The translations under genes were made by a program, and so were the position numbers. From an uncultured Ruminiclostridium sp. (GTDB taxonomy: Bacteria > Bacillota > Clostridia > Oscillospirales > Ruminococcaceae), in the NCBI GenBank assembly GCA_947594425.1, contig CANQED010000017.1, forward strand, positions 1-41,168: a DNA stretch of 41,168 nt, in the 5' to 3' direction. The notes below the pieces were generated by a model. That model was not told where the DNA came from, did not search any database, and saw only the letters and a program-made list of their open reading frames with translations. This document shows positions 254-33,976 of this stretch, one piece after another. Positions within the stretch are counted from its first letter, which is position 1. Each line of letters begins with the position of its first letter.

Positions 254-928
254 ATGGCAGAAAATTTTATACAAGTGATCGATCTCGAAAAGACATTTTT
301 ATCGGGAGAAAACAAAATAGCCGCGGTAAAAAAATGCAGCCTTTCGATAAATAAGGGCGAACAGATAGCCGTTATGGGACCGTCGGGCTCGGGCAAAAGC
401 ACCTTTCTTTCATTGCTCGGAGGGCTTGCCGCGCCCACGTCGGGCAGGATAACGGTAGGCGGCTTTGACTATACCTCCGCCTCGGATAAAGAAATGACGG
501 CGTTTCGCAGGGACAATATAGGCTTTGTATTTCAGTCGTATAACCTTATCCCCGAAATGACCGCAAAGCAAAATATAATCCTCCCGCTTAAATTAGGCGG
601 AAAGACTTATGATAAAGAGCATTTTGACAGTATATGCCGAGAGCTTAATATATCAGACAGGCTGACGCACCTGCCGAGCGAATTATCGGGCGGACAGCAG
701 CAGAGAGTCGCTATAGCGAGAGCGCTCATCACCGAGCCGTCGCTGCTTCTTTGTGACGAGCCAACGGGAAATCTCGATTCCGCGTCGGGAAACGAGGTCA
801 TGGAGCTGCTGCTCGGCCTAAGCGGCAAAACGGGCAGCACGCTTATTGTAGTTACACACGACGAGAGCGTTGCTGCTCAGCTGCAAAGAGTGATACATAT
901 TTATGACGGCGAGATCTCGGAGGTGTAA
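254..928 (+). CDS. ABC transporter ATP-binding protein, MacB/LolD type
   Basis: This is a 224-residue cytoplasmic ATPase that powers the permease encoded next. Visible motifs are Walker A GPSGSGKST (about residues 38-46), the Q-loop in FVFQSYNLIPEMT, the signature LSGGQQQRVAIARAL, and Walker B LLLCDEPTGNLD followed by the switch histidine in VVTHD. The length and the CDEPTGNLD motif are typical of the MacB/LolD/BceA group, which pairs with FtsX-fold permeases. In Gram-positives these often handle antimicrobial peptides or lipoproteins. The start is supported by AAAGGAG a few bases upstream, and a consensus promoter lies at 179-207. The stop is 2 bp from the next start, so the two genes are surely cotranscribed. 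No two-component system of the BceRS type sits beside it, so the substrate is unknown. Confidence 0.93.
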   Translation: MAENFIQVIDLEKTFLSGENKIAAVKKCSLSINKGEQIAVMGPSGSGKSTFLSLLGGLAAPTSGRITVGGFDYTSASDKEMTAFRRDNIGFVFQSYNLIPEMTAKQNIILPLKLGGKTYDKEHFDSICRELNISDRLTHLPSELSGGQQQRVAIARALITEPSLLLCDEPTGNLDSASGNEVMELLLGLSGKTGSTLIVVTHDESVAAQLQRVIHIYDGEISEV

Positions 929-930
929 GT

Positions 931-3480
931 ATGATCACTTTGAGTATTGCCTTTAATTACATCCGCCGACATCTGACTAAATTTTTGCTTATTACTTTAG
1001 CCTGCGGCATGCTTATTTCTTCGATAACCGTAATAATTATCAACGGAAATATAACCAAATACAATAATTTTATCAAGGCTTATCAAAGCTACCCCAACTT
1101 TGTCCGCATATATTATGACTGCGACGAAAGCAAGCTCACAGACAGCGTATTAAACGAATATTACTGCGGGCGGCAGGATATAACTGGCACTGTCGATATA
1201 TACGGGAAAACCGTCGGCGTAAGCTGGATGGACCAAGCCGCTTTAGCCTCGGTAAATGTAGAATTGCTGCGCGGCAGGCTTCCCGAGAGCAAAGACGAGA
1301 TAGCGGTGACCGAAAATATCCTAAATCAGCTCAACGCCAAGATAGGCGATACCGTGACGCTTTCATACACATCGTCCGACGGCGTGACTGACAGAGAATT
1401 TATTATCTGCGCATTGATAACCGACATCACGGATATTTTGAAAACTACTGTAATATCCGCTCATACAACAGCATATTGGGACAAGGGCGAGATAGAGCGA
1501 GAAGATATACCCGTGATATACCCCGAGATACTTACCGCAAAGCAGGACGCAGCTATCTGCCACAACGCCGTGCAGAACCTTGCCGCCAAGGTCTTTCTTA
1601 ATGAGGAGAGCATGCTGTGCGACCTCGGCGAGAAGATACAGGTGGTAAACTATCTTATGAGCGAGACCTCATCTATATACAATGAGAGCAACGACAACGG
1701 CAATATAATAATAAGCTATATATTGATAGGGCTTATCGTCTGCGCCGTGTTTGGAGGTATATACGGATGTGTGCGCATTATTTCCGACGGGCAGAAAAAC
1801 AATCTCGCCCTGCTCAAAACGATAGGCGCGAGCAAAGGTCAGCGCTTTTGCGTCTTTTTATGGGAGTCGGGATTTATCTCGCTTATATCCGCGCTTATCA
1901 GCATACCCGCCGGCGCGGCGTTTGTGCGGATATTCAACGCCGCTGTCGCTTCCAAAAATACGCTCTTTCACTTTCCTGTCCCCTACACGATGATAATTAT
2001 TTCGGCGGCGGTATCGTTTGCGGTGATGATGGTATTTTTCATCTTTCATTTTCGCTCGGTCAATTCTCAAAAGCAGTTCAGACCGAAGTCTGTCGAAAAT
2101 GAAGAACGCGTATCGCTTGAAAAGCTGTGGACAAGGACTGTCGGACGTCACACCGACACTTCAAAGTGGGTATACAGCGCGGTGATATGCGCCTTTACCG
2201 TAGTATTTACGGTGGGCATGTGCTTTGGCGATACCGAGAGCCTGCCTTATCTTGCGCACGCCGAAGAAACAGAAAACGACGTCGGTTACTTTATGTATAC
2301 AGGCTCGGGAGGTATAAGCTCTGATTATTTCGATTACGGCACGCCCTCGTATAACGGGTTTACCGACGAGGAAATAGCCGAGCTGAATGAAAAATACAAC
2401 ACGTCCGTCTACTTTAAGGGCATGGAGATGAATATAAACTCGTATATCATCTCAAACGGGAAAACGCCAAACGGGCTTGACGACATATCTCCCGCTAAGT
2501 ACAGCGACAAGGCGCTTAAGCTGATAAATGCGGCGGGACTGCAGGATTTTGAAGCGTTGTACAAATACCGCGTAAAGGCTGTGCCCTATGAATATCTTAA
2601 AAGCATAACGGGCGACAGCGACATAACGCAGGAGGATTTTGACAGCGGCAGGCGCGTCATTTCTGTAAACGGAAAATTTGACGAGGGAGAAAAGTTAGCG
2701 CTCGGGTTTATGTTCTTTCCGGACGATTATTTTGTAAGCGACAGCTATACCGAAGAATTTGTGCCGAGCGTGTGCTTTGCCGATATTACCGTTACAGATA
2801 ATGTGACCGTAAATGAAGCCGAGCTTTCAAAAATAATCGGACGCTTTGCCGACAGGAGCTTTCTGCTTGTGTCGGACAAATTCCTGCTCGGGCTCAGCGA
2901 CAGGTTCAGATACGACTTTCTCGCTTTAAACGGCGACAAAAATATACCCGTGCAGACTATGCGCGATATAGATACTCAGCTCAGCTACTTTACTAACTCA
3001 AAGTTTTTGTTTTTTGAGAATTATATCATTACGCCCGTGCTTATGCAAGACCGCGTAGAGAGCATAAAGCTGCCTATCGTCGCGGTAAGCGCGCTGTATA
3101 TGATAATAGTGGTAATGTTCGGCTTTATTTTCATAAATTCCGAGATAAAATCAAGGAGCAAAAGCATAGCCCTGCTAAGGTCTATGGGCATAAGCTCAAA
3201 GCAGCTGACAAAGACCGTCATAACCGACGCGTGCACAAAGGTGCTTACCGGCCTCATAGTCGGCATAGTCCTGTCTGTCGCCCTATCCATAGCCCTGATA
3301 CTGCTTACGGCGAAGTACAACCCCACATACCTCGAGCTTTTCCCATATACGGTATTAATGATATATCCGCTGATACCCACGTTTATCACTCTGGTGATAA
3401 ATATCGCGGCGGCGCTCTTCGCTCTGCACAGGATAAAGAAAGAAGAGATATACCGCGCAATAGTATCCGAGATATTCTGA
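931..3480 (+). CDS. ABC transporter permease with two FtsX domains
   Basis: This 849-residue membrane protein is the partner of the preceding ATPase. It has an N-terminal membrane segment (about 16-38), an extracytoplasmic stretch, then three segments at about 255-375 with the FtsX-like motif NLALLKTIGAS near residue 292. A second half repeats the plan: one segment near 412-430, a large extracytoplasmic region to about 700, and three C-terminal segments (about 717-735, 772-793, 807-832) with ALLRSMGIS near 747. Two FtsX domains in one chain is the usual arrangement for stand-alone Gram-positive FtsX/MacB-like exporters. GGAGGTG upstream of the ATG supports the start. The gene ends just before a strong bidirectional terminator and faces the precursor-peptide genes tail to tail. 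Any role in exporting those peptides is only a guess. Confidence 0.9.
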   Translation: MITLSIAFNYIRRHLTKFLLITLACGMLISSITVIIINGNITKYNNFIKAYQSYPNFVRIYYDCDESKLTDSVLNEYYCGRQDITGTVDIYGKTVGVSWMDQAALASVNVELLRGRLPESKDEIAVTENILNQLNAKIGDTVTLSYTSSDGVTDREFIICALITDITDILKTTVISAHTTAYWDKGEIEREDIPVIYPEILTAKQDAAICHNAVQNLAAKVFLNEESMLCDLGEKIQVVNYLMSETSSIYNESNDNGNIIISYILIGLIVCAVFGGIYGCVRIISDGQKNNLALLKTIGASKGQRFCVFLWESGFISLISALISIPAGAAFVRIFNAAVASKNTLFHFPVPYTMIIISAAVSFAVMMVFFIFHFRSVNSQKQFRPKSVENEERVSLEKLWTRTVGRHTDTSKWVYSAVICAFTVVFTVGMCFGDTESLPYLAHAEETENDVGYFMYTGSGGISSDYFDYGTPSYNGFTDEEIAELNEKYNTSVYFKGMEMNINSYIISNGKTPNGLDDISPAKYSDKALKLINAAGLQDFEALYKYRVKAVPYEYLKSITGDSDITQEDFDSGRRVISVNGKFDEGEKLALGFMFFPDDYFVSDSYTEEFVPSVCFADITVTDNVTVNEAELSKIIGRFADRSFLLVSDKFLLGLSDRFRYDFLALNGDKNIPVQTMRDIDTQLSYFTNSKFLFFENYIITPVLMQDRVESIKLPIVAVSALYMIIVVMFGFIFINSEIKSRSKSIALLRSMGISSKQLTKTVITDACTKVLTGLIVGIVLSVALSIALILLTAKYNPTYLELFPYTVLMIYPLIPTFITLVINIAAALFALHRIKKEEIYRAIVSEIF

Positions 3481-3492
3481 TAAGGTATACGA

Positions 3493-3530
3493 TATAAAAA
3501 ACTCGTGCGAGAGAGCACGAGTTTTTTATA
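3493..3530. terminator. Bidirectional rho-independent terminator
   Basis: A perfect 16-bp stem (3493-3508 with 3515-3530) around the loop GAGAGA is flanked by an A-run on the left arm and a T-run on the right. It ends transcription from both the FtsX operon (+) and the peptide cassette (-). Confidence 0.93.
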
Positions 3531-3568
3531 TTCAACTCCTTAAGTAAGAACGGATATTGACCCTAAAT

Positions 3569-3943
3569 TTAAAACGGTAAAAGGTCCTTTGCCGCCTTAG
3601 CCAAGCCCTTGCCCGTATCGACAAGCGTTTCTTTTACGTCCTCTTCAAAGAATTTCGGGACATCCTCGGTAAAGAAGTCCTTCACATCCTCGGTAAAGAA
3701 CTTTTTCACCGAAGAGAACGCCTTATCGAACCAGTCGGAGATAACGCATCCGCCGACAACGCCCTCAAGCTCGTCGTCGCTGAGCTCGCCCTCGGCGTGC
3801 AGCTTATCGTACAGCTTCTGCGCGTTTTCAAGACTAAATTCGACGCCGAATTCGCCCGCTAATTTTACCAGCTCCTCGGGCGACTTTGCCGTAATGAGCC
3901 TTTCTTTAAATTCTTCCTTGCTGATGGCCTTGGTTTCTTCCAT
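3569..3943 (-). CDS. Nif11-like leader precursor peptide with octapeptide repeats in the core
   Basis: This 124-residue protein begins at the ATG at 3943, which has AAGGAGGA 7 bases upstream; an earlier in-frame start lacks such support. Residues 1-65 look like a Nif11-type leader: ISKEEF near the start, a charged helix, then ELSDDELEGVVGG with the double glycine at 64-65 and Cys66 directly after. The remaining 59 residues carry WFDKAF, then three 8-residue units V[KP][KD]FF[TE]ED at about 79-102, and a hydrophobic tail ending LLPF. Leaders of this kind are known from RiPP precursors, where the GG is the cleavage site of C39-type peptidases. Here the core is acidic, amphipathic and poor in Cys/Ser, unlike lanthipeptide cores. 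It is the last gene of the cassette. A bacteriocin-like or structural role is possible but unproven. Confidence 0.85.
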   Translation of the reverse strand: MEETKAISKEEFKERLITAKSPEELVKLAGEFGVEFSLENAQKLYDKLHAEGELSDDELEGVVGGCVISDWFDKAFSSVKKFFTEDVKDFFTEDVPKFFEEDVKETLVDTGKGLAKAAKDLLPF

Positions 3944-3960
3944 ATCATTATCCTCCTTAA

Positions 3961-4398
3961 TTAGTGCAAAAACAGTTTGCCGCAGCTCTTGCACCTATAG
4001 TTACATTGGTGACCTGCCACAGGGTCCATATATACCCCTTTTACGGTGCTTATCGAGCCGCAGCCGGGGCATTTTACATTGTCGATTATTTGGGTCGCAA
4101 TGACGCCTATCTCTTTAGCCGCCTGCGGAATATCCTCGACAAAGAAATCCTTAACGTCCTCGGCGGCCTTTTCAAACCAGCTGCCTATCTTGCATAAGAA
4201 GCAGCCGCCTGTTACCCCCTCAAGCTGCTCGTCGCTGAGCTCACCCGTCGTGCGCGCCTCGTCAAACATCTTTTGGGCAGCGTCGGCGCTCAGATCAACG
4301 CCGTTTTCTTTAGCGAGGGCGATTATGTCCTCGGGGGACTCGGCGTCTCTCAGCAAAGTCATAAACTCCTCTTTAGAAATGAGTTTTTCTTGCTCCAT
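3961..4398 (-). CDS. Nif11-like leader precursor with C-terminal zinc-ribbon-like tail
   Basis: This 145-residue protein has the same architecture as its downstream neighbour: a 65-residue Nif11-type leader (ISKEEF, ELSDEQLEGVTGG) with GG at 64-65 and Cys66 next. The segment after the leader shares WFEKA and DVKDFF-x-ED-I-P with the other precursor. The C-terminus differs, with two CxxC pairs, CPGC (Cys110/113) and CKSC (Cys136/139), plus Cys132, spaced like a zinc ribbon. A strong AAGGAGG precedes the start at 4398. The gene lies 44 bp after the condensation-fold gene and 17 bp before the second precursor, so it is in one transcript. A metal-binding tail on a double-glycine leader peptide is unusual. 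The cysteines could instead be sites of modification. Confidence 0.85.
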   Translation of the reverse strand: MEQEKLISKEEFMTLLRDAESPEDIIALAKENGVDLSADAAQKMFDEARTTGELSDEQLEGVTGGCFLCKIGSWFEKAAEDVKDFFVEDIPQAAKEIGVIATQIIDNVKCPGCGSISTVKGVYMDPVAGHQCNYRCKSCGKLFLH

Positions 4399-4442
4399 AA
4401 TTTTACCTCCTTATTCTCAAATAATAAAACCTGATCGGTCTT

Positions 4443-5702
4443 TTACATCTTCAGACTCGGGCAGATAAGCTCCTCTTCGTCGTCGGCGTTTACCTGTATC
4501 CCTACGCGCCTAAGCTGCTCGATAAAGGCGTCGGACAGCGCGCTGCCTGCAAATTCTTGCAAAAAGGTCACGCAGAATTTTCCCGCTACGGCGTTCGCCT
4601 CAAATAACAGATGGCTTGCGGCGGGGTCTACATAAGTAAATATCGACCTTATATACGGCTCGAGCGCGCCGAGCTGCTGCACGCGGACATAGCTTACCGT
4701 GGCGTCGACGTATATGCGGTTAGCCAACGACGCCTTTTGAAACGCCTCGTGTATAGCGTCATAGTCGCCTAAGGCGAGCACCTTGCGCTCGTTATTCAGG
4801 CGCTTTTTAACCGCGCCGAGCATATATTCGGGCGTAGACTGATAGTCCATCATCTTGCGCGTAACGGCGCAGATCTTGTCTATAGGCATATTGCGCATAT
4901 CCTCGGTGTAATTGAACACGATGTTGCCGAGCACGTTATTATGCGCGAGCGGCGCGCCGACCGCCTCGCGGTAATTCTTCATAAGCACCGTCCTAAAAGG
5001 GTGGGACAGCTTATTGCTTAGCTCAAACACCGCCTTAGCTATCAGGGCGGACAGCACCAACGACGGCGTGCCGCCGCACTGCCTAACGTATTCCATAAAT
5101 GCGTCCTCGGAAAAGGTCATCTTGCGTACTGTCCTCAGCGCGGGACAGCCCGAGATTATCTCCTCCCAGTTCGCTGCGGGCTCGGCGGGCGGGCTTGCAC
5201 TCTCGCCCTCGGCGGGCTCTACATCGAGATAGGGGTCTCTTCTCTCTCCGTCGGTGACAGGGACATCCAGCGTGCGGATACTCCCCGCGGGAAAGGTCTC
5301 GCCGTATTTTTCGCATATATAATAATACAGCGTGGTCTTGATAAATTCGAGTATACCCGTTTCGTCGGTGATAGAATGCACTATGTCAAAATACACCGTA
5401 TTGCCGTCATAATTAATCGCGAGGGCGTGATAATTTGCCTCTTTGCTTAGCAGCATAACGGGGTTTATCCCCTTAGTTATCACTATCTGCTCGCCGTTAG
5501 GTCTTACCGAGTGTAAAAGCTCGCCGGGCACACGCTGTATACTTACGGCATAATAATCATACCGCTTTATCGCCGTATCTACAGCGTTTCGCAATATGGC
5601 GGGTTCTACGGGCTCGCTTAATTCTACCGCCGTCCTTACCGTATGGTGAAGGTTCTCGTCGCCCCTGTAAAAACCCGATATTCCCGATGGATTGTTTATC
5701 AT
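4443..5702 (-). CDS. Condensation/acetyltransferase-fold protein (HxxxD acyltransferase superfamily)
   Basis: This 419-residue protein most resembles the CoA-dependent acyltransferase/NRPS condensation superfamily, including alcohol acetyltransferase-like proteins. The main sign is VHSITDETG, with His109 and Asp113 forming the HxxxD motif and Gly116 where the family often has DG. The segment AHNNVLGNIVFNY around residue 275-290 resembles the second-half floor-loop region of that fold. No carrier-protein or adenylation domain is attached. The start at 5702 has GGGAGAG about 8 bases upstream; a longer reading frame would overlap the preceding gene. The gene lies 22 bp after the methyltransferase-STAS gene and 44 bp before the first precursor. 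Its substrate could be a peptide side chain or N-terminus, or a small alcohol or amine. Family assignment is moderately sure, the role unknown. Confidence 0.7.
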   Translation of the reverse strand: MINNPSGISGFYRGDENLHHTVRTAVELSEPVEPAILRNAVDTAIKRYDYYAVSIQRVPGELLHSVRPNGEQIVITKGINPVMLLSKEANYHALAINYDGNTVYFDIVHSITDETGILEFIKTTLYYYICEKYGETFPAGSIRTLDVPVTDGERRDPYLDVEPAEGESASPPAEPAANWEEIISGCPALRTVRKMTFSEDAFMEYVRQCGGTPSLVLSALIAKAVFELSNKLSHPFRTVLMKNYREAVGAPLAHNNVLGNIVFNYTEDMRNMPIDKICAVTRKMMDYQSTPEYMLGAVKKRLNNERKVLALGDYDAIHEAFQKASLANRIYVDATVSYVRVQQLGALEPYIRSIFTYVDPAASHLLFEANAVAGKFCVTFLQEFAGSALSDAFIEQLRRVGIQVNADDEEELICPSLKM

Positions 5703-5724
5703 ATGTCTACTCTCCCTGTTCTTA

Positions 5725-6942
5725 TTATAAGCCGAGCATATCCGCAAAGCCCGTCTGCTCGAGTATCGAGGTGACAAGCTCGTTAGGCTTTATAAGCGTG
5801 ATATTCTCCTGCCCTACATGCTTTGTCATACGCAGCAGCACTCTAAGCCCCGCCGAGGATATATAGTCGAGCTTCTCGACCGATACCGTTATGCTCTCTA
5901 TCTTATTTTCTTTTGATATCTTGTCGAAAAGCTCGAGCAGCTGCGGAGCGCTTATCGAGTCGAGCCGCCCCGAAAGGGATATATCGAGCTTATTGCCGCT
6001 TATGCTGTGGGATAATTCCAGCCCCGCCATTGTAGAAGTGACGGCGGGCTTTATCTCGGCGGACTTGTCAAGGCTTATCGCCCAGATATTGACGCTGCAA
6101 AGCCCCTTTATCAGCGCGTCACGCACCTCGGGCGGATAGCCGTCTATTTGGTCTATCTTCATGCCGTCGGTCCAAAACGGGTGCTTTGCCACCGTCATAC
6201 CGTCCTCGTTCAGCAGCCTCTCCGCCTCGTCCAGCGGCAGGGTCTTTATCGACGCGTCAGACTGTCGGTCAAACTCCTTTAGGTCTTTTCTGAGCAATTC
6301 TCCCGCTCTGCTGCCTAAAAGAGCGCCCGCCGCCGCCTTAAACGCCATACCGACCTCATAGTCGGTGGTCAGCCACACGCCGCCGTGCTTTGCCAAGACG
6401 TCGCGTATCGCCTGCCACATAGCCCTCTTTTCGGGGAGGGTGAGGTATACCATCACGCCCTCGCTCGATATCGTGACCGCGCCCTGCATTGTGTCGGCCG
6501 CCGCCATCACCGAAAGGCTGTTGGTAACGTCGGTGGGCAGGTATGTACACTTTCCGTCCATAAGCTTCTCATTAAGGATATTCATTACCTCGACCACGGC
6601 GGGAAGATCGCCGCCGACATAATTATACCCGTTTCTTATAAGATAGCGCCCTCTCGGGGTGTACCCGCAGGCAAGGTCGAGCACGTTTTTATTTCCCGCT
6701 AAGGCTATCTCTCTGTTGGCTATATTATAGCGCAATAAGAGCATAAGCTCGTTCAGCTTTTCGAGCTCGCCGCCCTCATTAAAGACCTCTTTATCCGCCG
6801 AATACTCGCTCTTTTCCGACTGTATATCGAGCAGAGCCTTTTCGTACTCGGCCGCCTCGGCAACGCCCGCCTGCGCGAGCTGGTGCAGGGTGGTCTTAGC
6901 GGTATTGAATATCGGGTTTACTTCTTCATATACGTTTGACAT
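5725..6942 (-). CDS. SAM-dependent methyltransferase fused to a C-terminal STAS domain
   Basis: This is a 405-residue fusion. Residues about 60-300 form a class I methyltransferase: NVLDLACGYTPRG is motif I, GGDLP the acidic end of the second strand, and SSEGVMVYLTLPE matches the leucine-carboxyl-methyltransferase-like group (the family of polyketide O-methyltransferases and TYW4-like enzymes). Residues about 308-405 form a STAS domain as in anti-sigma-factor antagonists, with KLDYISSAGLRVLL. Ser362/Ser363 sit at the position that SpoIIAA-type proteins phosphorylate. AAGGAGGAATT before the ATG supports the start. It is the first gene of the peptide cassette. The fusion suggests that methylation is switched or localised through STAS binding, but no serine kinase or phosphatase is encoded nearby. 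Domain calls are firm, the substrate unknown. Confidence 0.85.
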   Translation of the reverse strand: MSNVYEEVNPIFNTAKTTLHQLAQAGVAEAAEYEKALLDIQSEKSEYSADKEVFNEGGELEKLNELMLLLRYNIANREIALAGNKNVLDLACGYTPRGRYLIRNGYNYVGGDLPAVVEVMNILNEKLMDGKCTYLPTDVTNSLSVMAAADTMQGAVTISSEGVMVYLTLPEKRAMWQAIRDVLAKHGGVWLTTDYEVGMAFKAAAGALLGSRAGELLRKDLKEFDRQSDASIKTLPLDEAERLLNEDGMTVAKHPFWTDGMKIDQIDGYPPEVRDALIKGLCSVNIWAISLDKSAEIKPAVTSTMAGLELSHSISGNKLDISLSGRLDSISAPQLLELFDKISKENKIESITVSVEKLDYISSAGLRVLLRMTKHVGQENITLIKPNELVTSILEQTGFADMLGL

Positions 6943-7015: not shown

Positions 7016-8476
7016 TTAAGACTGCGAGCCGTTTCCCGCCAACGCCGCGCGCGACGTCTTTCTTCCGTACCATATCAATACCGCGGCATAAGCGACGGTA
7101 AGCACCCCGGCGACCGAGTAGCTTATCACCCACGGCAGATTAAAGCCGATAGCCGCGTTTAATATAAAGCTAGTTATCACGAACATATAGAACATGCCCG
7201 GCACGAGAGCCATTATAAACGGCTTTTTCTGCCGCATCATATATATCGATATCATCGCGAATGCAAATACCGCTATCGTCTGATTTGCCCACGCAAAGTA
7301 TCTCCAGAGGATATTAAAGCCGCCCTCGTTTATCTTGGCGAAAACAAGCACCGCCGCCACCACGGCGAATATCACGAGCGACACCGCGAGCCTTTTAGAC
7401 TTTTTGGTCTGGTCTATCTTCATAGCGTCGGATATTATCAGCCTGAGCGAGCGCAGGGCGGTATCTCCCGAGGTTATCGGCAGTACGATTATGCCTATCA
7501 CCGCGATTATACCCCCGACAGAGCCGAGCAGGTCCTTAGCTATTATCCCGACGACGTCGGTAGCGGAGGTGTCCGCCGACGCGAGCCCGAGCTTCATTAC
7601 GCCCATTGCCGCCGCCGCCCATATCATAGCTATCACGCCCTCGGCTATCATCATGTTGTAAAAGGTCATACGACCCTCTTTTTCGCTGCTTATCGTGCGC
7701 GAAATCAGCGTCGACTGAGTGGAGTGAAAGCCCGACACTATACCGCACGCCACCGTGACGAAGAACACCGGCATAAAGTTAAGCCCCTGCGGGTGCACTC
7801 CCGCTCCCGCCGTCCATAATTCATCGAGCGGATAGCCCTTTACGAGCAAGCCGATAAATACGCCTATCGCCGATAACAGCAGCAATATGCCGAATATCGG
7901 ATATACCTTGCCTATTATTTTATCTATCGGGAAAAGGGTGGCGATAATATAATATACAAATATCGCACCGTACACTATCCATACTATGGGGCTGGTAACG
8001 CCGTTGTCGGTATTAAGTATCTGGGTTATAAACAGATCCCCCGGGGTGTAGATAAACACCGTGCCCACAAGCAGCATAAGCAGGCATACAAACACATTGT
8101 ATATCGGGTACGCATACTTGCCGAGATATTTTCTTACCAGCCCGGGCATCTGCGCGCCGTCGTTGCGCACCGAGATCATACCGCACATATAATCGTGAAA
8201 AGCTCCGCCTATCACGCAGCCTATCGGTATCGTAATAAACGCTATCGGCCCGAAAAGTATGCCCTGTATCGGTCCTAATATCGGCCCCGTGCCCGCGATA
8301 TTCAGCAATTGTATCAGCGAATTTTTCCACTTTTTCATAGGGACATAGTCCATGCCGTCGTTAAGCCTTACGGCGGGGGTCTTGCGGTCGTCGGGGCAGA
8401 AAACCTTCTCGCACACCTTGCCGTACACCGCTCCGCCCAAAATAAGCATTGCAAAGCCTATAAAAAACGTTATCAT
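7016..8476 (-). CDS. cstA: CstA-family peptide/pyruvate transporter
   Basis: This 486-residue polytopic membrane protein matches the CstA/BtsT carbon-starvation family. Early signature stretches are the GTGPILGPIQGILFGP loop after LLNIAG and GGAFHDYMCGMISVRNDGAQMPGL; later ones are GFHSTQSTLISRT and GDTALRSLRL. About 13-15 hydrophobic segments are visible. Family members import peptides or pyruvate by proton symport. It is shorter than E. coli CstA/BtsT (about 700 residues), as is usual for Firmicutes homologues. The ATG at 8476 has GGGAG 8-10 bases upstream and is preferred over the GTG at 8485. It follows the hydrolase gene by 21 bp and is the last gene of a unit headed by a LytTR two-component system. 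Confidence 0.9.
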   Translation of the reverse strand: MITFFIGFAMLILGGAVYGKVCEKVFCPDDRKTPAVRLNDGMDYVPMKKWKNSLIQLLNIAGTGPILGPIQGILFGPIAFITIPIGCVIGGAFHDYMCGMISVRNDGAQMPGLVRKYLGKYAYPIYNVFVCLLMLLVGTVFIYTPGDLFITQILNTDNGVTSPIVWIVYGAIFVYYIIATLFPIDKIIGKVYPIFGILLLLSAIGVFIGLLVKGYPLDELWTAGAGVHPQGLNFMPVFFVTVACGIVSGFHSTQSTLISRTISSEKEGRMTFYNMMIAEGVIAMIWAAAAMGVMKLGLASADTSATDVVGIIAKDLLGSVGGIIAVIGIIVLPITSGDTALRSLRLIISDAMKIDQTKKSKRLAVSLVIFAVVAAVLVFAKINEGGFNILWRYFAWANQTIAVFAFAMISIYMMRQKKPFIMALVPGMFYMFVITSFILNAAIGFNLPWVISYSVAGVLTVAYAAVLIWYGRKTSRAALAGNGSQS

Positions 8477-8497
8477 ATTTACCACTCCCTAAAATAT

Positions 8498-9502: not shown

Positions 9503-10870
9503 TTATGCATCCGCATGCAAATTTAGCCTTACACGCGTTGTAAATATCTCTTTATCCGCGTTAAAGCGGAAAGCCGCGCTGCCGCCGTATTTTTTAGCGG
9601 TATGCGCTATGCTCGACAGCCCGTACCCGCCGTTAGTGTCGCTGACAAAAGCCTCGGCGGGCGAGAACCCGTTCTCGGTGAGAAAGCGGCGGTTGACGTT
9701 TACCGACTTGCAGGAGTTGGATATCTCCATAGCAAGCGAGCCCTGCACCGTGCCGACCTGAACATTGATAAAGCTGTCGCCGCCGCATTTGCGGCAGGAG
9801 CGTATGGCGTTTTCCATGGCGTTGCCGAATACCACGGTAAGGTCGTCGGGCTCTATGCTCAGTTCGTCGCACTCGGCGTGTATCTCGCAGCTTATGCCCT
9901 CGTCCTTAGCAAGTCCGACATAGTACTGCAGCAGGCCGTTTACCGTCATATTTTTACAGTATACCTCGCTCTCGCGGTTTACGGTGGTGTTTATAAGCTT
10001 AGACAGATAATCCTTTATCTTATCGGTCTGCCCGCTGTCGAGCATACTGCTGAGGGTGGCGTAATGATGGCGCAGATCGTGGCGCATCCTGCGGGTGCTG
10101 TCCATATCGCTGACGATCTTTTCGTACTGCAGCTGTTGTATCTCCATAGCTCTTTTGCTGTCGCTGTCGCGCTTTCGCCTGACGGACTCGCGAAATACGA
10201 GCCAGTATATAAGCACCTGATTTATCGTTAGCAGCACCAGCATCGGCAGATATTCTAAAAACTGCCACATCTTGCCGAACTGCGTATCAAAATATATCGC
10301 GAGGATAAAATACACCGTGGTGGATAATATCAGGATAAGAAATTCGCGGCGCATAGTCTTAGGCTCTATCATTTGGATATAGTCCTTAAGCGGGCGTATC
10401 ACCGCAAATATCATAATAGGCAAAAGCACCGCCGTCGCGAGTATGTACATTATCAAAAAGGTGTCGGTGTACGGATAGTGCATGGTGTCTATCGGCGGTA
10501 TCAAAAGCGAGTAAGCGGTGTTTACCGCGACAAATTCCGTCGCCGCATAAAACATTACGACAAAGAATACCATCACCTTTTTGATAACCGACCCGCGCAC
10601 AATCCACACATACGCCGCAAGTATAAGCAATACCGCCGCGAGCATAAACGAATTCGATATGGTGATGTGCATGGGGTATTTTTCGATATCCCTAAGGCAC
10701 AATACCGCCGCGAATATTATCGAGAACACCGCCGACGCGGCGCTTACCGATATAAATACGTTTCTTTGCTTAAAGCGATATGCCTCTTTAGGAAAAGGCA
10801 AAAATATCATTATCGCGCACGGGAAAAACTGTACAAAAAAGCCTAAGGCGTTTTGTAAAAAAACTATCAC
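9503..10870 (-). CDS. Sensor histidine kinase, AgrC-like/GHKL
   Basis: This 455-residue kinase has about six or seven N-terminal membrane segments (to about residue 220), a short coiled linker, an H-box in MRHDLRHHYATL (about residues 259-270), the N-box VVFGNAMENAIRSC (about 343-356) and the glycine-rich GGYGLSSI near 416. This is the HPK10/AgrC layout with a GHKL ATPase. The start is a GTG that overlaps the stop of the response-regulator gene (GTGA), which implies translational coupling. The partner is the LytTR regulator just upstream. No agrBD pair lies next to it, and the following genes suggest sensing of a nutrient rather than an autoinducer. Confidence 0.9.
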   Translation of the reverse strand: MIVFLQNALGFFVQFFPCAIMIFLPFPKEAYRFKQRNVFISVSAASAVFSIIFAAVLCLRDIEKYPMHITISNSFMLAAVLLILAAYVWIVRGSVIKKVMVFFVVMFYAATEFVAVNTAYSLLIPPIDTMHYPYTDTFLIMYILATAVLLPIMIFAVIRPLKDYIQMIEPKTMRREFLILILSTTVYFILAIYFDTQFGKMWQFLEYLPMLVLLTINQVLIYWLVFRESVRRKRDSDSKRAMEIQQLQYEKIVSDMDSTRRMRHDLRHHYATLSSMLDSGQTDKIKDYLSKLINTTVNRESEVYCKNMTVNGLLQYYVGLAKDEGISCEIHAECDELSIEPDDLTVVFGNAMENAIRSCRKCGGDSFINVQVGTVQGSLAMEISNSCKSVNVNRRFLTENGFSPAEAFVSDTNGGYGLSSIAHTAKKYGGSAAFRFNADKEIFTTRVRLNLHADA

Positions 10871-11598
10871 CCTTTATCCCCCCTAACGCCCCTCTGCTGA
10901 GAAAGGCGGTCAAAGACGTAATTGTCATACATCGCGCGTATGCTCGCGCTGTGCCGTATCGCTATCGGCAATTTGACCCCGTCGCGCATGGTGCAGGTAT
11001 CCGTCCCCATACGCACGATATACTCCATATTTACCACTATCCCGCGGTTTATTTTAAGAAAGCTGCCGTCGAGCTTTTGCTCGAGCTCGGCAAACGACGT
11101 CCACACCTTTAGTCTGCGCCCGTCGGAGAGAGATACGTTTACCGCGTGGTTGTCGTTTTCGAGCAGGCATATCTGATCCATAAAGACTGTGTGCCTGTCG
11201 TGCCCCACGGTAAAGGACAGCTGTCTGCGCCGCTTTGAGCGCAATTCGTTCAGTCGTCTGAACGTCTCTATTATCCCGTCGGTGGATACGGGCTTAACGA
11301 GATAATGCAGGGCGTGGAGCGAAAATGCGTCCACGGCAAACTCGGTGCTCGTGGTGACAAAGGCTATACCCGTTTCGGGGGAGGCATTTTGCAGAGCCTT
11401 TGCGATATCTATGCCGTTCTCTCCCGGCAGATATATGTCGAGGAAAACTATGTCAAAGCGAGGAAGCCTTTTCGCCGCGTCGAGCAATGCCGCGCCGTTT
11501 AAGAATTTTTCGGCGGTGCGGGTCGGGTCCCAGCCCTGAAGCGCCTTTTCTATCTGCTCTTGCTCGGCGATATCATCGTCGCATATCGCGATACGCAT
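10867..11598 (-). CDS. LytTR-family response regulator
   Basis: This 243-residue regulator has an N-terminal receiver with the acidic pair Asp7/Asp8, phospho-acceptor Asp54 in VFLDIYLPG, Thr in FVTTST and the conserved Lys in YLVKPVS. A C-terminal LytTR DNA-binding domain (about 135-235) includes FLKINRGIVVNMEYI. Phosphorylated proteins of this family bind paired direct repeats upstream of target promoters. Strong AAGGGGGGAG precedes the ATG, and a good promoter lies at 11660-11688. It is the first gene of the RR-kinase-hydrolase-transporter unit. Confidence 0.92.
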   Translation of the reverse strand: MRIAICDDDIAEQEQIEKALQGWDPTRTAEKFLNGAALLDAAKRLPRFDIVFLDIYLPGENGIDIAKALQNASPETGIAFVTTSTEFAVDAFSLHALHYLVKPVSTDGIIETFRRLNELRSKRRRQLSFTVGHDRHTVFMDQICLLENDNHAVNVSLSDGRRLKVWTSFAELEQKLDGSFLKINRGIVVNMEYIVRMGTDTCTMRDGVKLPIAIRHSASIRAMYDNYVFDRLSQQRGVRGDKG

Positions 11599-27767: not shown

Positions 27768-28313
27768 TTACTTATTTGCAGAGTTAAATTGTCGGAGAAG
27801 CTGTTTATACTTTTCCGATTGTTGAAAAGATGACATTGCCTCTATCGACGATAAATATTCTATCAGACTTTGTTTAGTGCAATATCTTTTTCCGACCACC
27901 TCCACCACAAGAAGTTTAGGTCCTAAGAGCATTTGATTTATATGTTTGCGCGAATAGCCGATCAGTTCTAATATATCGTCGGTATTAAGAGCGTCGGGGA
28001 GAGCTTTCCATCTGTTAGTGAGAAACCGCTTTAATTTTATACTATTATCTTTTGTCGGCTTTACTAAAAAACGATCCTCACATTGGCTGCAGCTGCTGAA
28101 TTTTCCTTTTAGCGGGGCGAGATAGCTTGGATCTTCTTCCAGCTTAAGTTTAAATTGCTCCGCGTCCCTGCGTACCACGCGGTATCTGTATGCTTTCTTT
28201 CCTGTATCCACCGCCGGTATATACCCGTTTTCAATCAAATATTTCATTTTCCTTTTTGAAATATGCAGGTATTTGTACAACTCCTCGCCGCTGAGATAAT
28301 CCTTTTCCGCCAT
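27768..28313 (-). CDS. Excisionase-like helix-turn-helix protein of an integrative element
   Basis: This 181-residue protein has an N-terminal MerR/excisionase-type HTH (YLSGEELYKYLHISKRKMKYLIENGYIPAV). A second HTH-like stretch lies near the middle (NTDDILELIGYSRKHINQMLLGPK). It carries CSQC in between and a lysine-rich C-terminus. GAGG is 8 bases before the chosen ATG; a start two codons earlier overlaps the recombinase stop codon as ATGA but has poor spacing. The place directly after the tyrosine recombinase and next to direct repeats suggests a role in recombination directionality. The protein is longer than typical Xis (60-100 residues). Confidence 0.7.
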   Translation of the reverse strand: MAEKDYLSGEELYKYLHISKRKMKYLIENGYIPAVDTGKKAYRYRVVRRDAEQFKLKLEEDPSYLAPLKGKFSSCSQCEDRFLVKPTKDNSIKLKRFLTNRWKALPDALNTDDILELIGYSRKHINQMLLGPKLLVVEVVGKRYCTKQSLIEYLSSIEAMSSFQQSEKYKQLLRQFNSANK

Positions 28314-28315
28314 TT

Positions 28316-29080
28316 TCATTGCCTCTTTTTGTCGTTAAATATCTGTGATATGACCTTTGCGCTTGCTATCTTGCTTGATTTATCAAGATGTCCGTATATG
28401 TTCGCCGTCGTTGATATTGTGGAGTGTCCGAGGAAATTCGACACATCGATCAGCGGTACATTTCTTGACAGCAGCATACTTGCAAAGGTATGTCTGAGAT
28501 CGTGAAAACGTATATGCTTCAGCCCGACCTTTTGCAATATCTGAGGAAAATGCGCCGTAACATATCCCGGTCGCAGCAGATTGCCTAAAGGATCGACGCA
28601 CACATAATCTTCAAATTCCTTGTTGTAGCTGCCTTTGAACATTTCTTTATATAGCCCCTGCATCTCCTTTATGTTGTTCAGCATTTGAATGACAGGTGCG
28701 GTCAGCGGTATGGTTCTTCGGCTCGATACGTTTTTCATCTGCTCTATTGGTATTGCTATCGTTTTGTTGTTCTCGATTTTTTCAACGACCTTTGTGTCTA
28801 TCAGAACCGTATTCTGCGCAAAGTCTATCCTTGACCAGCGTACGCCCAATGCCTCGCTTCGCCGTAATCCGAGTCCGCCGGCTAAAACTATTACCGGATA
28901 AATATTATCATTCGCCGCCTCATTCATCAGTTTACGCCATTCTTCCTCGCTGAAACACGCCGCGTTATATTTTATGATCTTCGGGCGGTCTACTCTGTCA
29001 AAGGGGTTCGCGTCAATTATTTCATGCTTAAGCGCCGAGATAAGTATCGCCGTCCTCGGCATTGGATTTAAGATATACAT
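28316..29080 (-). pseudogene. Tyrosine recombinase (integrase), 5'-truncated
   Basis: The frame encodes the catalytic domain of a phage/ICE-type tyrosine recombinase. Recognised parts are ALKHEIIDANPFDRV at the end of the core-binding domain, LGLRRSEALGVRW with the first Arg, HDLRHTFASMLL with His-x-x-Arg, and LGHSTISTTANIYGH with His and the nucleophile Tyr. Family members are about 370-400 residues and carry an N-terminal arm-binding domain and a complete SAM-like domain. Here only about 245 residues match, and upstream the frame runs into the Cna_B-like fragment. The first ATG at 29080 lies in that foreign part. The protein may keep catalytic residues but lacks DNA-binding parts, so it is probably inactive. 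Confidence 0.82.
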
Positions 29081-29942
29081 AGAACTCTGCCGACTCTTCG
29101 GGAATAAGCTCTTCGGGATCCGTTAGTTCTGCCGTATCGGTTTTGTATTTCAGTATATCAAACCAGCCGTAAATCGGTTTTTCGTTTACGCTCTGCGTAA
29201 GAGGATTTAACTCAGCGGTAAAGTTTGCGGGATCGGTGTTTAAGGTATATACTGTTGTATCAAGGAGATAGCCCTCTGACGGAGTGATTTCCTTGATTGT
29301 CCATACATCAGTACCGGCGGTTCTTTCATCACAAACGTAGTTTTTAGTGGTAAATTGACCGTTATCATCAGTTGTGTACCTGTCAACTTCTATGCCATTT
29401 TTGTATATGGCGTATACAGCACCTGCTAACTTAGCATCACCATGAGGCATGCCGTTCTTGCTGTCGTTGTCGCGCTTTGTCAAGGTAACACTAAACTTCT
29501 TTAAGTCGTTTTCAAACGTTACATTAGTTACCTCGTCCCAGTTGATCTCAATACCCTTTTGATCTTGGGGCTGAACATACTGTATCGGAGTATGTATCTC
29601 TGATATCGTGTAGTTATTGCCGATAGGGATATTATCAAAATGTACCTTACCGTCTGCGCCTACCGTTGCGGTTTCGTCGATCTCAATACCCGATAGGGAA
29701 GTACCTTTCAGACGGAACTGCAGACCTTGTGCCCTATTATCCTCAGCTAATTTGGTAACTACTACATAGCCTTCTTCAAGAGGGTTATCTGCTTCTATTG
29801 TAACAGGCTCGGCAGGATTAGTTATTTTATCCTTAACGGTGACGGTTGCTCCCTTCCAGTTATCAAAGTACGGTTTCTGTGTGACTTCTTCAAGTTTATA
29901 AGGGTCATCTACACAATGTCCCCTAAAACACCTTATATTGTT
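29028..29942 (-). pseudogene. Cna_B/SpaA-like surface adhesin fragment, truncated at both ends
   Basis: One frame stays open from a stop at 29943 to a stop at 29028 (about 304 codons) without a usable start. The translation contains Cna_B-type beta-sandwich repeats: EEGYVVVTKLAEDNRAQGLQF, FDNIPIGNNYTISEIHTP, and GDAKLAGAVYAIYKNG with GQFTTKNY and WTIKEITPSEGYLLD. These E-box-like KEITP/SEIHTP segments are typical of isopeptide-forming pilin-like surface proteins. Signal peptide, N-terminal region and sorting signal are missing. The last 17 codons overlap the recombinase frame at 29028-29080, which marks a recombination joint. Confidence 0.78.
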
Positions 29943-33214: not shown

Positions 33215-33340
33215 TCACTTTTTGAATTTCTTTAAATCCTTAGGAGCTTTGGGCTGGTAGCTAAAAGCATAACACGTTGTATTAGCTGAGTGCTGAACTG
33301 TTTTCTTTGTAATCTTAGCTATTACGTTCCAAATCTTCAT
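33215..33340 (-). CDS. agrD: AgrD-like autoinducing peptide precursor
   Basis: This 41-residue peptide has the three-part AgrD plan. An amphipathic N-terminal helix (MKIWNVIAKITKK) is followed by the region ANTTCYAFSY with the single Cys23, which would form the thiolactone, and a C-terminal recognition part QPKAPKDLKKFKK. The conserved P-x-x-P-x-x-L-like element after the core (QPKAPKDL) is typical of clostridial AgrD. AAAAAGGAGGGG lies 7 bases before the ATG. Its start overlaps the end of agrB by 26 bp, the usual arrangement. The mature signal should be a cyclic peptide around Cys-Tyr-Ala-Phe-Ser(-Tyr). Confidence 0.88.
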   Translation of the reverse strand: MKIWNVIAKITKKTVQHSANTTCYAFSYQPKAPKDLKKFKK

Positions 33341-33926
33341 TTTTTCCCCTCCTTTTTAATAATTTTTCCAATATCATTAAAACGGAATCAACCGTTAATG
33401 AACTAAATAACGCAAAACTTATTTCTATATTTTTACAAAGCATAAATAATATGCCTACAATTAAAAATATGGAACTTATTATAATAGCCTTTTTTCTGTA
33501 TTCTATATATTCCTCTTTTTCTAACGGTCTGTTTTCATTTTGTATAGGTGATAACAAGAAAATTATTACAAAAGCAAAAATCGCAACGGCTAACTGTGTA
33601 TATACAACTTCTTCAAAATAAAGAGAATTTATTTTATATAAAAAAGCAAAAATAAAATATATCAAAACAGAAACAAATGTACAAGTACTTGACTTTTTAC
33701 AATGATGACCACCTGTGTATTCTCTCAAAATCATATAAGAAAGAACAAACACAAGCCCTGCAAAAACTGTACCTGTTATGAGAGCGATAATTGTTATGAA
33801 ACCCAAAATCAAAACTTTTGAGATAAACAGTTTTGCTCCATATAAATAAATTTCTTCATCTTCTTCAATAATCACATTATTTTTAATCATCTTAGCAACG
33901 ATAATTTTTGCAATCTCATTAATCAT
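33315..33926 (-). CDS. agrB: AgrB-like membrane endopeptidase
   Basis: This 203-residue membrane protease trims and cyclises AgrD at the cytoplasmic side. The catalytic His75 and Cys82 lie in REYTGGHHCKKSSTC, spaced seven apart as in Staphylococcus AgrB. About five or six membrane segments are visible. The ATG at 33926 has GGGAG 9 bases upstream and is preferred over a TTG seven codons earlier. agrD overlaps the 3' end. No intact agrC or agrA lies next to it: only a 3' remnant of agrC is found upstream at 34300-34443. Confidence 0.92.
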   Translation of the reverse strand: MINEIAKIIVAKMIKNNVIIEEDEEIYLYGAKLFISKVLILGFITIIALITGTVFAGLVFVLSYMILREYTGGHHCKKSSTCTFVSVLIYFIFAFLYKINSLYFEEVVYTQLAVAIFAFVIIFLLSPIQNENRPLEKEEYIEYRKKAIIISSIFLIVGILFMLCKNIEISFALFSSLTVDSVLMILEKLLKRRGKNEDLERNS

Positions 33927-33976
33927 ACTCAGCATCTCCCAAAACAATCCATTTCTTTTTTACAATAAAAAAAGAA

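Follow-up and report, generated by a model that had tools for sequence, protein, structure and literature searches.

The subject of this analysis is a four-gene unit on the minus strand of a 41,168-nucleotide stretch of DNA from an uncultured Ruminiclostridium sp. (the window), which constitutes contig C17 of a draft genome of 2.6 Mb and 99.95% completeness (G000). Read in the direction of transcription, the unit (positions 3569–6942) consists of genes for a methyltransferase fused to a STAS domain (MT-STAS), an acyltransferase-fold protein (ACYL), and two peptides with Nif11-like leaders (pre1 and pre2; Table 1). A preliminary description, made from the sequence alone, had reported four co-directional genes with short gaps and ribosome sites and had proposed that they form a peptide-modification cassette; the gene arrangement was borne out, with gaps of 22, 44, and 17 bp, Shine-Dalgarno-like sequences, and four intact open reading frames (ORFs). 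The unit is closed by a strong intrinsic terminator, spotted by eye and absent from the scanner's list, and a CstA-like gene lies upstream. Pfam scans took in the main ORFs of the window (nine of them, ACYL included, without a match at the thresholds used); the ORF at 7016–8485 was scanned with NCBIfam alone, and two ORFs of ~90 amino acids (aa) lay outside the scans.

Table 1. Coordinates of the unit, its parts, and its upstream neighbour in the window, and of a small protein in related loci (L-numbers)
Feature	Position	Strand	Basis
MT-STAS, 405 aa, LCMT/PPM1-like methyltransferase + SpoIIAA/RsbV-like STAS domain	5725..6942	-	
Predicted methyltransferase domain, MT-STAS residues 1-294	6061..6942	-	structure alignment ranges
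STAS domain, MT-STAS residues 305-405, YISSAGLR motif	5728..6030	-	Pfam, alignment, predicted structure
ACYL, 419 aa, stand-alone protein of predicted BAHD/PapA/condensation fold	4443..5702	-	
HxxxD catalytic-type motif HSITD, ACYL residues 109-113	5364..5378	-	
pre1, 145 aa, Nif11-like leader peptide, 80-residue core	3961..4398	-	
pre1 leader, ends ELSDEQLEGVTGG	4204..4398	-	
Two CxxC pairs of the zinc-ribbon-like pre1 core (C110, C113, C136, C139)	3982..4071	-	sequence
pre2, 124 aa, Nif11-like leader peptide, 59-residue core	3569..3943	-	Pfam Nif11 25.2 bits
pre2 leader, ends ELSDDELEGVVGG	3749..3943	-	
Intrinsic terminator, hairpin + U tract	3492..3531	-	17-pair stem, -22.3 kcal/mol
CstA-like transporter	7016..8485	-	NCBIfam CstA E 6e-23, far under its cut-off
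Small protein with decayed double-glycine leader end	L090:10824-11012, L124:6511-6708, L141:13894-14079, L142:6656-6841, L108:12813-13010, L109:8263-8460, also L088:10050-10259		

Enzymes and peptides of the unit

The methyltransferase-STAS fusion of the preliminary description was confirmed, the STAS domain by Pfam (E 4.4e-10) and the methyltransferase domain, which stays sub-threshold in Pfam (16.4 bits where 27 are needed), by its predicted structure, for which the closest matches are the leucine-carboxyl methyltransferases PPM1/LCMT-1 (PDB 1rjd, 3iei; 11–14% identity, and the window protein differs in being fused to STAS). As modelled, the methyltransferase domain has the LCMT/PPM1 fold, and the STAS domain, which fits SpoIIAA, has a STAS fold with a phospho-acceptor serine, as in anti-sigma-factor antagonists. 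In the alignments the S-adenosylmethionine (SAM)-site residues are intact, and Ser362 and Ser363 are invariant across 40 sequences. Other class I methyltransferases score close behind LCMT (~2–4 Z lower), so that carboxyl methylation by this domain is to be taken as a lead only. The MT-STAS family is large (366 matches) and repeated within genomes, and a second MT-STAS of G000 lies in two pieces on contig C18 (L120:353-1775). Two relatives with 38% identity, P0042 and P0044, carry GALSDDDVEAVAGG directly before a C-terminal tail of 18 residues, possibly a fusion of enzyme and substrate in which the end of a double-glycine (GG) leader and a core would be joined behind STAS; these were the only proteins with the tail motif among the 120 listed of the 366 matches, and a family search with P0044 over 396 genomes did not return the fused protein. 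In borosins an autocatalytic methyltransferase is fused to the core peptide, and its fold differs from that of MT-STAS; P0042 and P0044 suggest a borosin-like enzyme-core fusion, which is absent from the MT-STAS of the window. At L100:5425-6606, among the stretches with distant ACYL homologues, the partner fused to a STAS domain is instead an APH/choline-kinase-like phosphotransferase; the protein belongs to a sequence cluster with 12 members in nine fetched loci, of which this one member was scanned.

ACYL, whose start is most likely position 5702 rather than the longer ORF start at 5777, has no family match in Pfam or NCBIfam and no credible match in a sequence search against the PDB. Its predicted structure is of the BAHD/PapA5/condensation type, and the HSITDETG motif is present, in agreement with the HxxxD acyltransferase fold described earlier; on this model, ACYL is a two-lobed CAT-like protein of the BAHD/PapA/condensation superfamily with an HxxxD motif. 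Fold and motif are shared with PapA5, BAHD transferases, condensation domains of non-ribosomal peptide synthetases (NRPS), and AzeD, but at identities of only ~7–16%, and no NRPS module occurs among the window ORFs scanned. H109 is invariant in 23 aligned sequences, and the motif Asp is missing in some of the distant ones. Neither enzyme has a leader-binding domain of the RiPP recognition element (RRE)/PqqD type among its Pfam and NCBIfam matches (RiPP, ribosomally synthesised and post-translationally modified peptide), and two scans of viral contigs returned no relative of either.

Both peptides have the acidic leader end LSDxxLxxVxGG with its GG cleavage motif, and the earlier assignment to double-glycine Nif11-type leaders holds for the GG motif and for a Nif11 likeness, though in divergent form. 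For Pfam Nif11 (PF07862, cut-off 23.8 bits) pre1 falls just under the cut-off (23.1) and pre2 passes it, and for NCBIfam TIGR03798 (cut-off 32.3 bits) neither does (pre1 26.8, pre2 28.9), so the peptides are termed divergent and Nif11-like and are not filed as TIGR03798 members. They are nevertheless the best of the three TIGR03798 matches in the whole genome, which argues that their tandem arrangement is not due to chance. The pre1 leader is 41–54% identical to 13 other aligned leaders, that of pre2 included, and the GG is invariant in all 14. The core of pre1 is zinc-ribbon-like, with sub-threshold zinc-ribbon matches only in Pfam, and that of pre2 contains a repeated FFTEDV. A homologue search with pre1 returned the window's own protein alone (one cluster on three contigs); since the first peptides after ACYL in two related loci (L010 of G035 and L011 of G030) are 45–46% identical to pre1 and were missed, this search is insensitive to such peptides.

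Distribution of enzymes and peptides in related genomes

Among 149 genomes, with G000 counted in, Nif11 leaders were found in 28, close orthologues of ACYL in four, close orthologues of MT-STAS in three, and both enzymes together in one, G000; the proposed four-family modification cassette is accordingly unsupported. Two patterns had been named beforehand as telling against such a cassette, and each was seen in part. Precursors were mostly without the enzymes, neither close orthologue being present in 22 of the 28 Nif11-positive genomes, and enzymes were kept without Nif11-like peptides, in the case of ACYL in two genomes (G494 and G366) and, within 6 kb, at all 23 distant loci examined, and in the case of MT-STAS, within the same distance, at 18 of 21 fetched loci. 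These sequence comparisons suggest that MT-STAS and ACYL are not obligatory partners of Nif11 peptides. Peptides near loci were counted over all six-frame ORFs within a 6-kb reach, using a leader profile (alignment A4) and the motif, a procedure that other Nif11 types can escape; the Nif11 peptides of G033:C62, for instance, lie >6 kb from its ACYL and are unrecognised by profile and motif. Alignment A4 includes leaders of the window, G035 (L010), G416, G048, and G005, for which A4-based scores are by construction.

Orthologues of ACYL with 52–73% identity define a shared chromosomal site in eight genomes, four from the window's genus (G000, G029, G030, G035) and four from another genus of the same family (G222, G366, G416, G494), and in all eight a CstA-like gene precedes it. 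In G030, G035, G222, and G416 the CstA gene is followed, in this order, by HlyD, a C39 peptidase-containing ATP-binding cassette (ABC) protein (C39-ABC1), ABC2, an extracytoplasmic function (ECF) sigma factor, ACYL, and Nif11 peptides; G029 has HlyD and ABC genes, but its ABC1 lies in two frames and a sigma match is lacking. The trio typical of NHLM/N11P export loci, HlyD (TIGR03794), C39-ABC1 (TIGR03796), and ABC2 (TIGR03797), is thus at the ACYL site in five of the eight genomes (in G035 with 945 bits for C39-ABC1, 720 for ABC2, and 39.7 for HlyD against a 156.2-bit cut-off), in each with ACYL between the export genes and the peptides. ACYL follows CstA directly in G366 and G494, and MT-STAS and ACYL follow it in G000. 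A tblastn search of the window for HlyD, sigma, C39, and ABC-membrane sequences came back empty; what ABC1 and ABC2 matched were ATPase domains of other transporters. Peptides stand beside ACYL in six of the eight genomes (G000, 2; G035, 12; G030, 18; G029, 2; G222, 2; G416, 3; none in G366 and G494). Zinc-ribbon-like cores were recognised by eye in G000 (1/2 peptides), G035 (4/12), G030 (4/18), and G029 (1/2), and none were seen in G222, G416, or G048, nor beside MT-STAS in G005 and G028.

Both G494 and G366 have an intact ACYL and no convincing Nif11 peptide, their best leader score (E 6e-4, one with an internal stop) being independent of alignment A4. Neither has an NHLM ABC1, the best matches being ABC proteins at 31–33% identity. 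The ratio of nonsynonymous to synonymous substitution rates (dN/dS) for ACYL between the two is 0.21; for the MT-STAS of G000 and three further ACYL pairs it was not computable as dS was saturated. A partial HATPase (residues 67–145 of 145) upstream of CstA in G494 suggests that an export locus was once there and that ACYL was kept; in G416, just the HATPase end falls inside the fetched stretch. The converse occurs in G048, where the CstA site has HlyD, ABC genes, a sigma factor, and at least nine peptides without ACYL, one of its cores, GIIDTVKEWFGSLFGK, being a single residue apart from GIVDTVKEWFGSLFGK in the ACYL-bearing G030. The ABC1 of G048 has a frame change near residue 45; the changes inside the C39-ABC1 genes of G029 (L091:14257-16439) and G048 (L124:1954-4132) may be assembly error or decay.

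Close MT-STAS orthologues (65% identity) were present in G005 and G028 and are 99% identical to each other. There the order is SpoIIE phosphatase, HlyD, ABC, ABC, sigma, MT-STAS, and Nif11-like peptides, in an NHLM locus different from the CstA site; the two loci are near-identical and thus count as one independent case of MT-STAS beside such peptides. Each enzyme is therefore linked to Nif11/NHLM export loci, ACYL in five of eight genomes and MT-STAS in this one case. Elsewhere the families part from the peptides: among 21 fetched MT-STAS loci, Nif11-like peptides were within reach only in the window, G028, and G005. Distant ACYL homologues were examined in 22 long stretches (16 from the window's genus, six from other genera) and L013, many weaker matches lying outside this set and G352:C25 and C26, which have the same gene content, being counted as two; an NHLM-like ABC pair was near one of the 22 (G033:C62), a STAS, SpoIIE, or HATPase gene near eight, and an MT-STAS near three. 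With no Nif11 peptide recognised within 6 kb at any of the 23 loci, it follows that ACYL-type enzymes and STAS-tagged ones also co-occur where such peptides are lacking.

Readings of the unit

On balance, and with somewhat better than even confidence, the unit is read as a rearranged, exporter-less N11P/NHLM peptide-secretion locus with accessory enzymes. This draws on the gene content, predicted folds, synteny, the dissociation of enzymes from peptides, and an exporter elsewhere in the genome. The earlier statement that LanM, YcaO, radical SAM, and C39 proteins are absent stands for the window ORFs scanned with Pfam and fails genome-wide, as an NHLM C39 exporter, the sole NHLM ABC1 in the genome over the curated cut-off, is encoded at G000:C1:65726-67843 (980 bits), in a neighbourhood with two divergent Nif11 peptides, a STAS gene, and a sigma gene. 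The functional part of the reading, which comprises export in trans, partner switching, the activities of both enzymes, and the function of the peptides, would run as follows. The peptides pre1 and pre2 would be inert while the leader is attached, until a C39 peptidase-ABC exporter cleaves after Gly-Gly and frees the cores, a zinc-ribbon-like peptide of 80 residues and an amphipathic one of 59, which are probably bacteriocin- or signal-like. As the window site has no cognate exporter, export would be in trans via the NHLM exporter on C1. The C39 domain LahT150 requires no more than the last ~13 residues of a leader and cleaves a variety of GG leaders (PMC6363468), which makes such trans export plausible. 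MT-STAS would be an LCMT-like methyltransferase with a phospho-switchable STAS domain, wired to a partner switch of the SpoIIE-phosphatase/HATPase type, and ACYL an accessory, thioester-dependent acyltransferase; both may have been recruited to N11P/NHLM loci as accessories, neither being an obligatory peptide maturase.

Several observations weigh against this reading. ACYL and the close MT-STAS orthologues directly precede peptide genes, the position of a maturase, and the tails of P0042 and P0044 constitute a physical link to leader peptides. Zinc-ribbon-like cores are, by eye, confined to ACYL-bearing loci among the nine compared. The two genomes with ACYL alone may have lost their peptides recently, and the peptides of G048, whose ABC1 is frame-broken, may likewise go unexported. 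Identity between the exporter on C1 and the cognate one in G035 reaches just 44%, and divergent leaders (2e-7) accompany the former. Further, the distant ACYL loci with partner-switch genes are all in the window's genus (8/16 against 0/6 in other genera), a comparison made with no formal null and with several short contigs.

A second reading, close to the preliminary description, is a new RiPP pathway: ahead of their export, the Nif11-leader peptides would be methylated by MT-STAS, acting as an LCMT-like enzyme and plausibly forming a carboxyl methyl ester, and acylated by ACYL. Such a pathway is possible on sequence grounds, given the co-directional, closely spaced genes, the separate placement of either enzyme beside Nif11 peptides in relatives, the fused tails, the intact HxxxD and SAM-site residues, and the existence of acylated Nif11-leader peptides made with GNAT enzymes (PMC13060382); we nonetheless consider it unlikely, as the two close orthologues coincide only in G000, ACYL persists without peptides in two genomes, a near-identical core occurs without ACYL in G048, most MT-STAS loci and all distant ACYL loci have no such peptides within 6 kb, and no RRE/PqqD-type domain is among the matches of either enzyme. 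A bolder variant is very improbable: STAS would replace the RRE, the LCMT-fold enzyme holding and methyl-esterifying Nif11-type leaders, P0042 and P0044 would carry their own GG-cleavable substrate, a BAHD/PapA-type enzyme would acylate, and stress-type partner switching would gate peptide maturation. The unit might also be a decaying locus in which exporter and sigma factor were lost, the peptides orphaned, and MT-STAS inserted without relation, leaving four genes with no joint function. The export and sigma genes are indeed gone from the site, two peptides remain where G035 and G030 have 12 and 18, the close MT-STAS orthologues of G005 and G028 lie at another locus, and a further MT-STAS of G000 is fragmented; the four intact ORFs, the good ribosome sites and terminator, the purifying selection on ACYL between species, and the full GG leaders of both peptides render decay doubtful.

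Neighbouring genes, related arrays, and known systems

Four further groups of genes in the window were recorded. A LolD/MacB-like ABC ATPase and an FtsX permease (254–3480), convergent with the operon, are a possible immunity pump, and no orthologue of them was seen in L010–L013. A GHKL sensor kinase and a LytTR response regulator (9503–11598) lie upstream of the CstA-like gene and have homologues in several relatives. An AgrB-like peptide-processing protein (33315–33947; Pfam E 7e-37) marks a second possible peptide-signal locus, and a phage-type integrase with a helix-turn-helix gene (27768–29483) adjoins a SpaA-fold fragment and is probably a mobile element.

Cysteine-rich cores of other kinds belong to the radical-SAM arrays in G028:C10 and in G036 (L123, L125), and the radical SAM/SPASM proteins beside them (L123:6397-7827, L125:5313-6707) indicate that a maturase of conventional type accompanies other Nif11 arrays of the genus. 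A near-invariant 16-residue core, GI(V/I)DT(V/I)KxW(F/V)GSLFG(K/R), occurs in L124, L090, L141, and L142 across two genera, which is unusual among hypervariable cores, and the heptapeptide core MSIWTYH has two copies in L089 and three in L090. A small conserved protein encoded ahead of the sigma gene has a decayed GG-leader motif at its C-terminal end (for example LNDSELEVNAAGE; Table 1) and is possibly an uncleavable leader mimic; a similar-looking protein is present in the C1 NHLM locus of G000.

According to Haft, Basu and Mitchell 2010 (PMC2887384), N11P peptides adjoin the same transport trio, and leaders, exporters, and enzymes evolve by mix and match, of which the window locus is an instance. 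It resembles the loci described there in its Nif11-type GG leaders, in paralogous arrays, and, in its relatives, in the HlyD, peptidase-ABC, and ABC trio, and differs in that the window site has no TOMM (thiazole/oxazole-modified microcin) or lanthionine enzyme and no exporter; STAS and sigma genes are unmentioned in that text. The lah cluster, with the C39 transporter LahT (a peptidase-containing ATP-binding cassette transporter, PCAT) and nine Nif11-type precursors, is similar (PMC6363468) in coming from a clostridial commensal and in its many leaders, diverse cores, and C39 cleavage at GG, but it holds its own PCAT and the window site does not. Nostolysamides and selidamides, acylated lanthipeptides with Nif11 leaders, likewise have an acyltransferase gene beside a Nif11-leader peptide, though this enzyme is a tandem GNAT (PMC13060382), a fold different from the BAHD/PapA/condensation fold of the window, where peptide acylation is putative. 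A search of titles and abstract beginnings found no MT-STAS or condensation-fold enzyme named with Nif11 peptides, and no paper with both 'Nif11' and 'zinc ribbon'; within the literature searched, a condensation-fold enzyme acylating Nif11-leader peptides would be new, if shown.

For the annotation of such loci, the comparison carries the warning that adjoining Nif11 leaders are insufficient to name an enzyme a RiPP maturase, and it yields new leads in the zinc-ribbon-like cores and in those MT-STAS relatives to which a GG-leader tail and a core are fused. Together with these tails, the STAS-tagged enzymes of the genus (methyltransferase and APH-type kinase) offer a testable link from partner-switch signalling to secreted peptides. 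On the reading preferred here, that of a rearranged secretion locus, N11P/NHLM peptide loci in Clostridia would be rebuilt at one chromosomal site by the interchange of modules, namely the exporter, the sigma factor, the accessory enzyme, and the peptide array.

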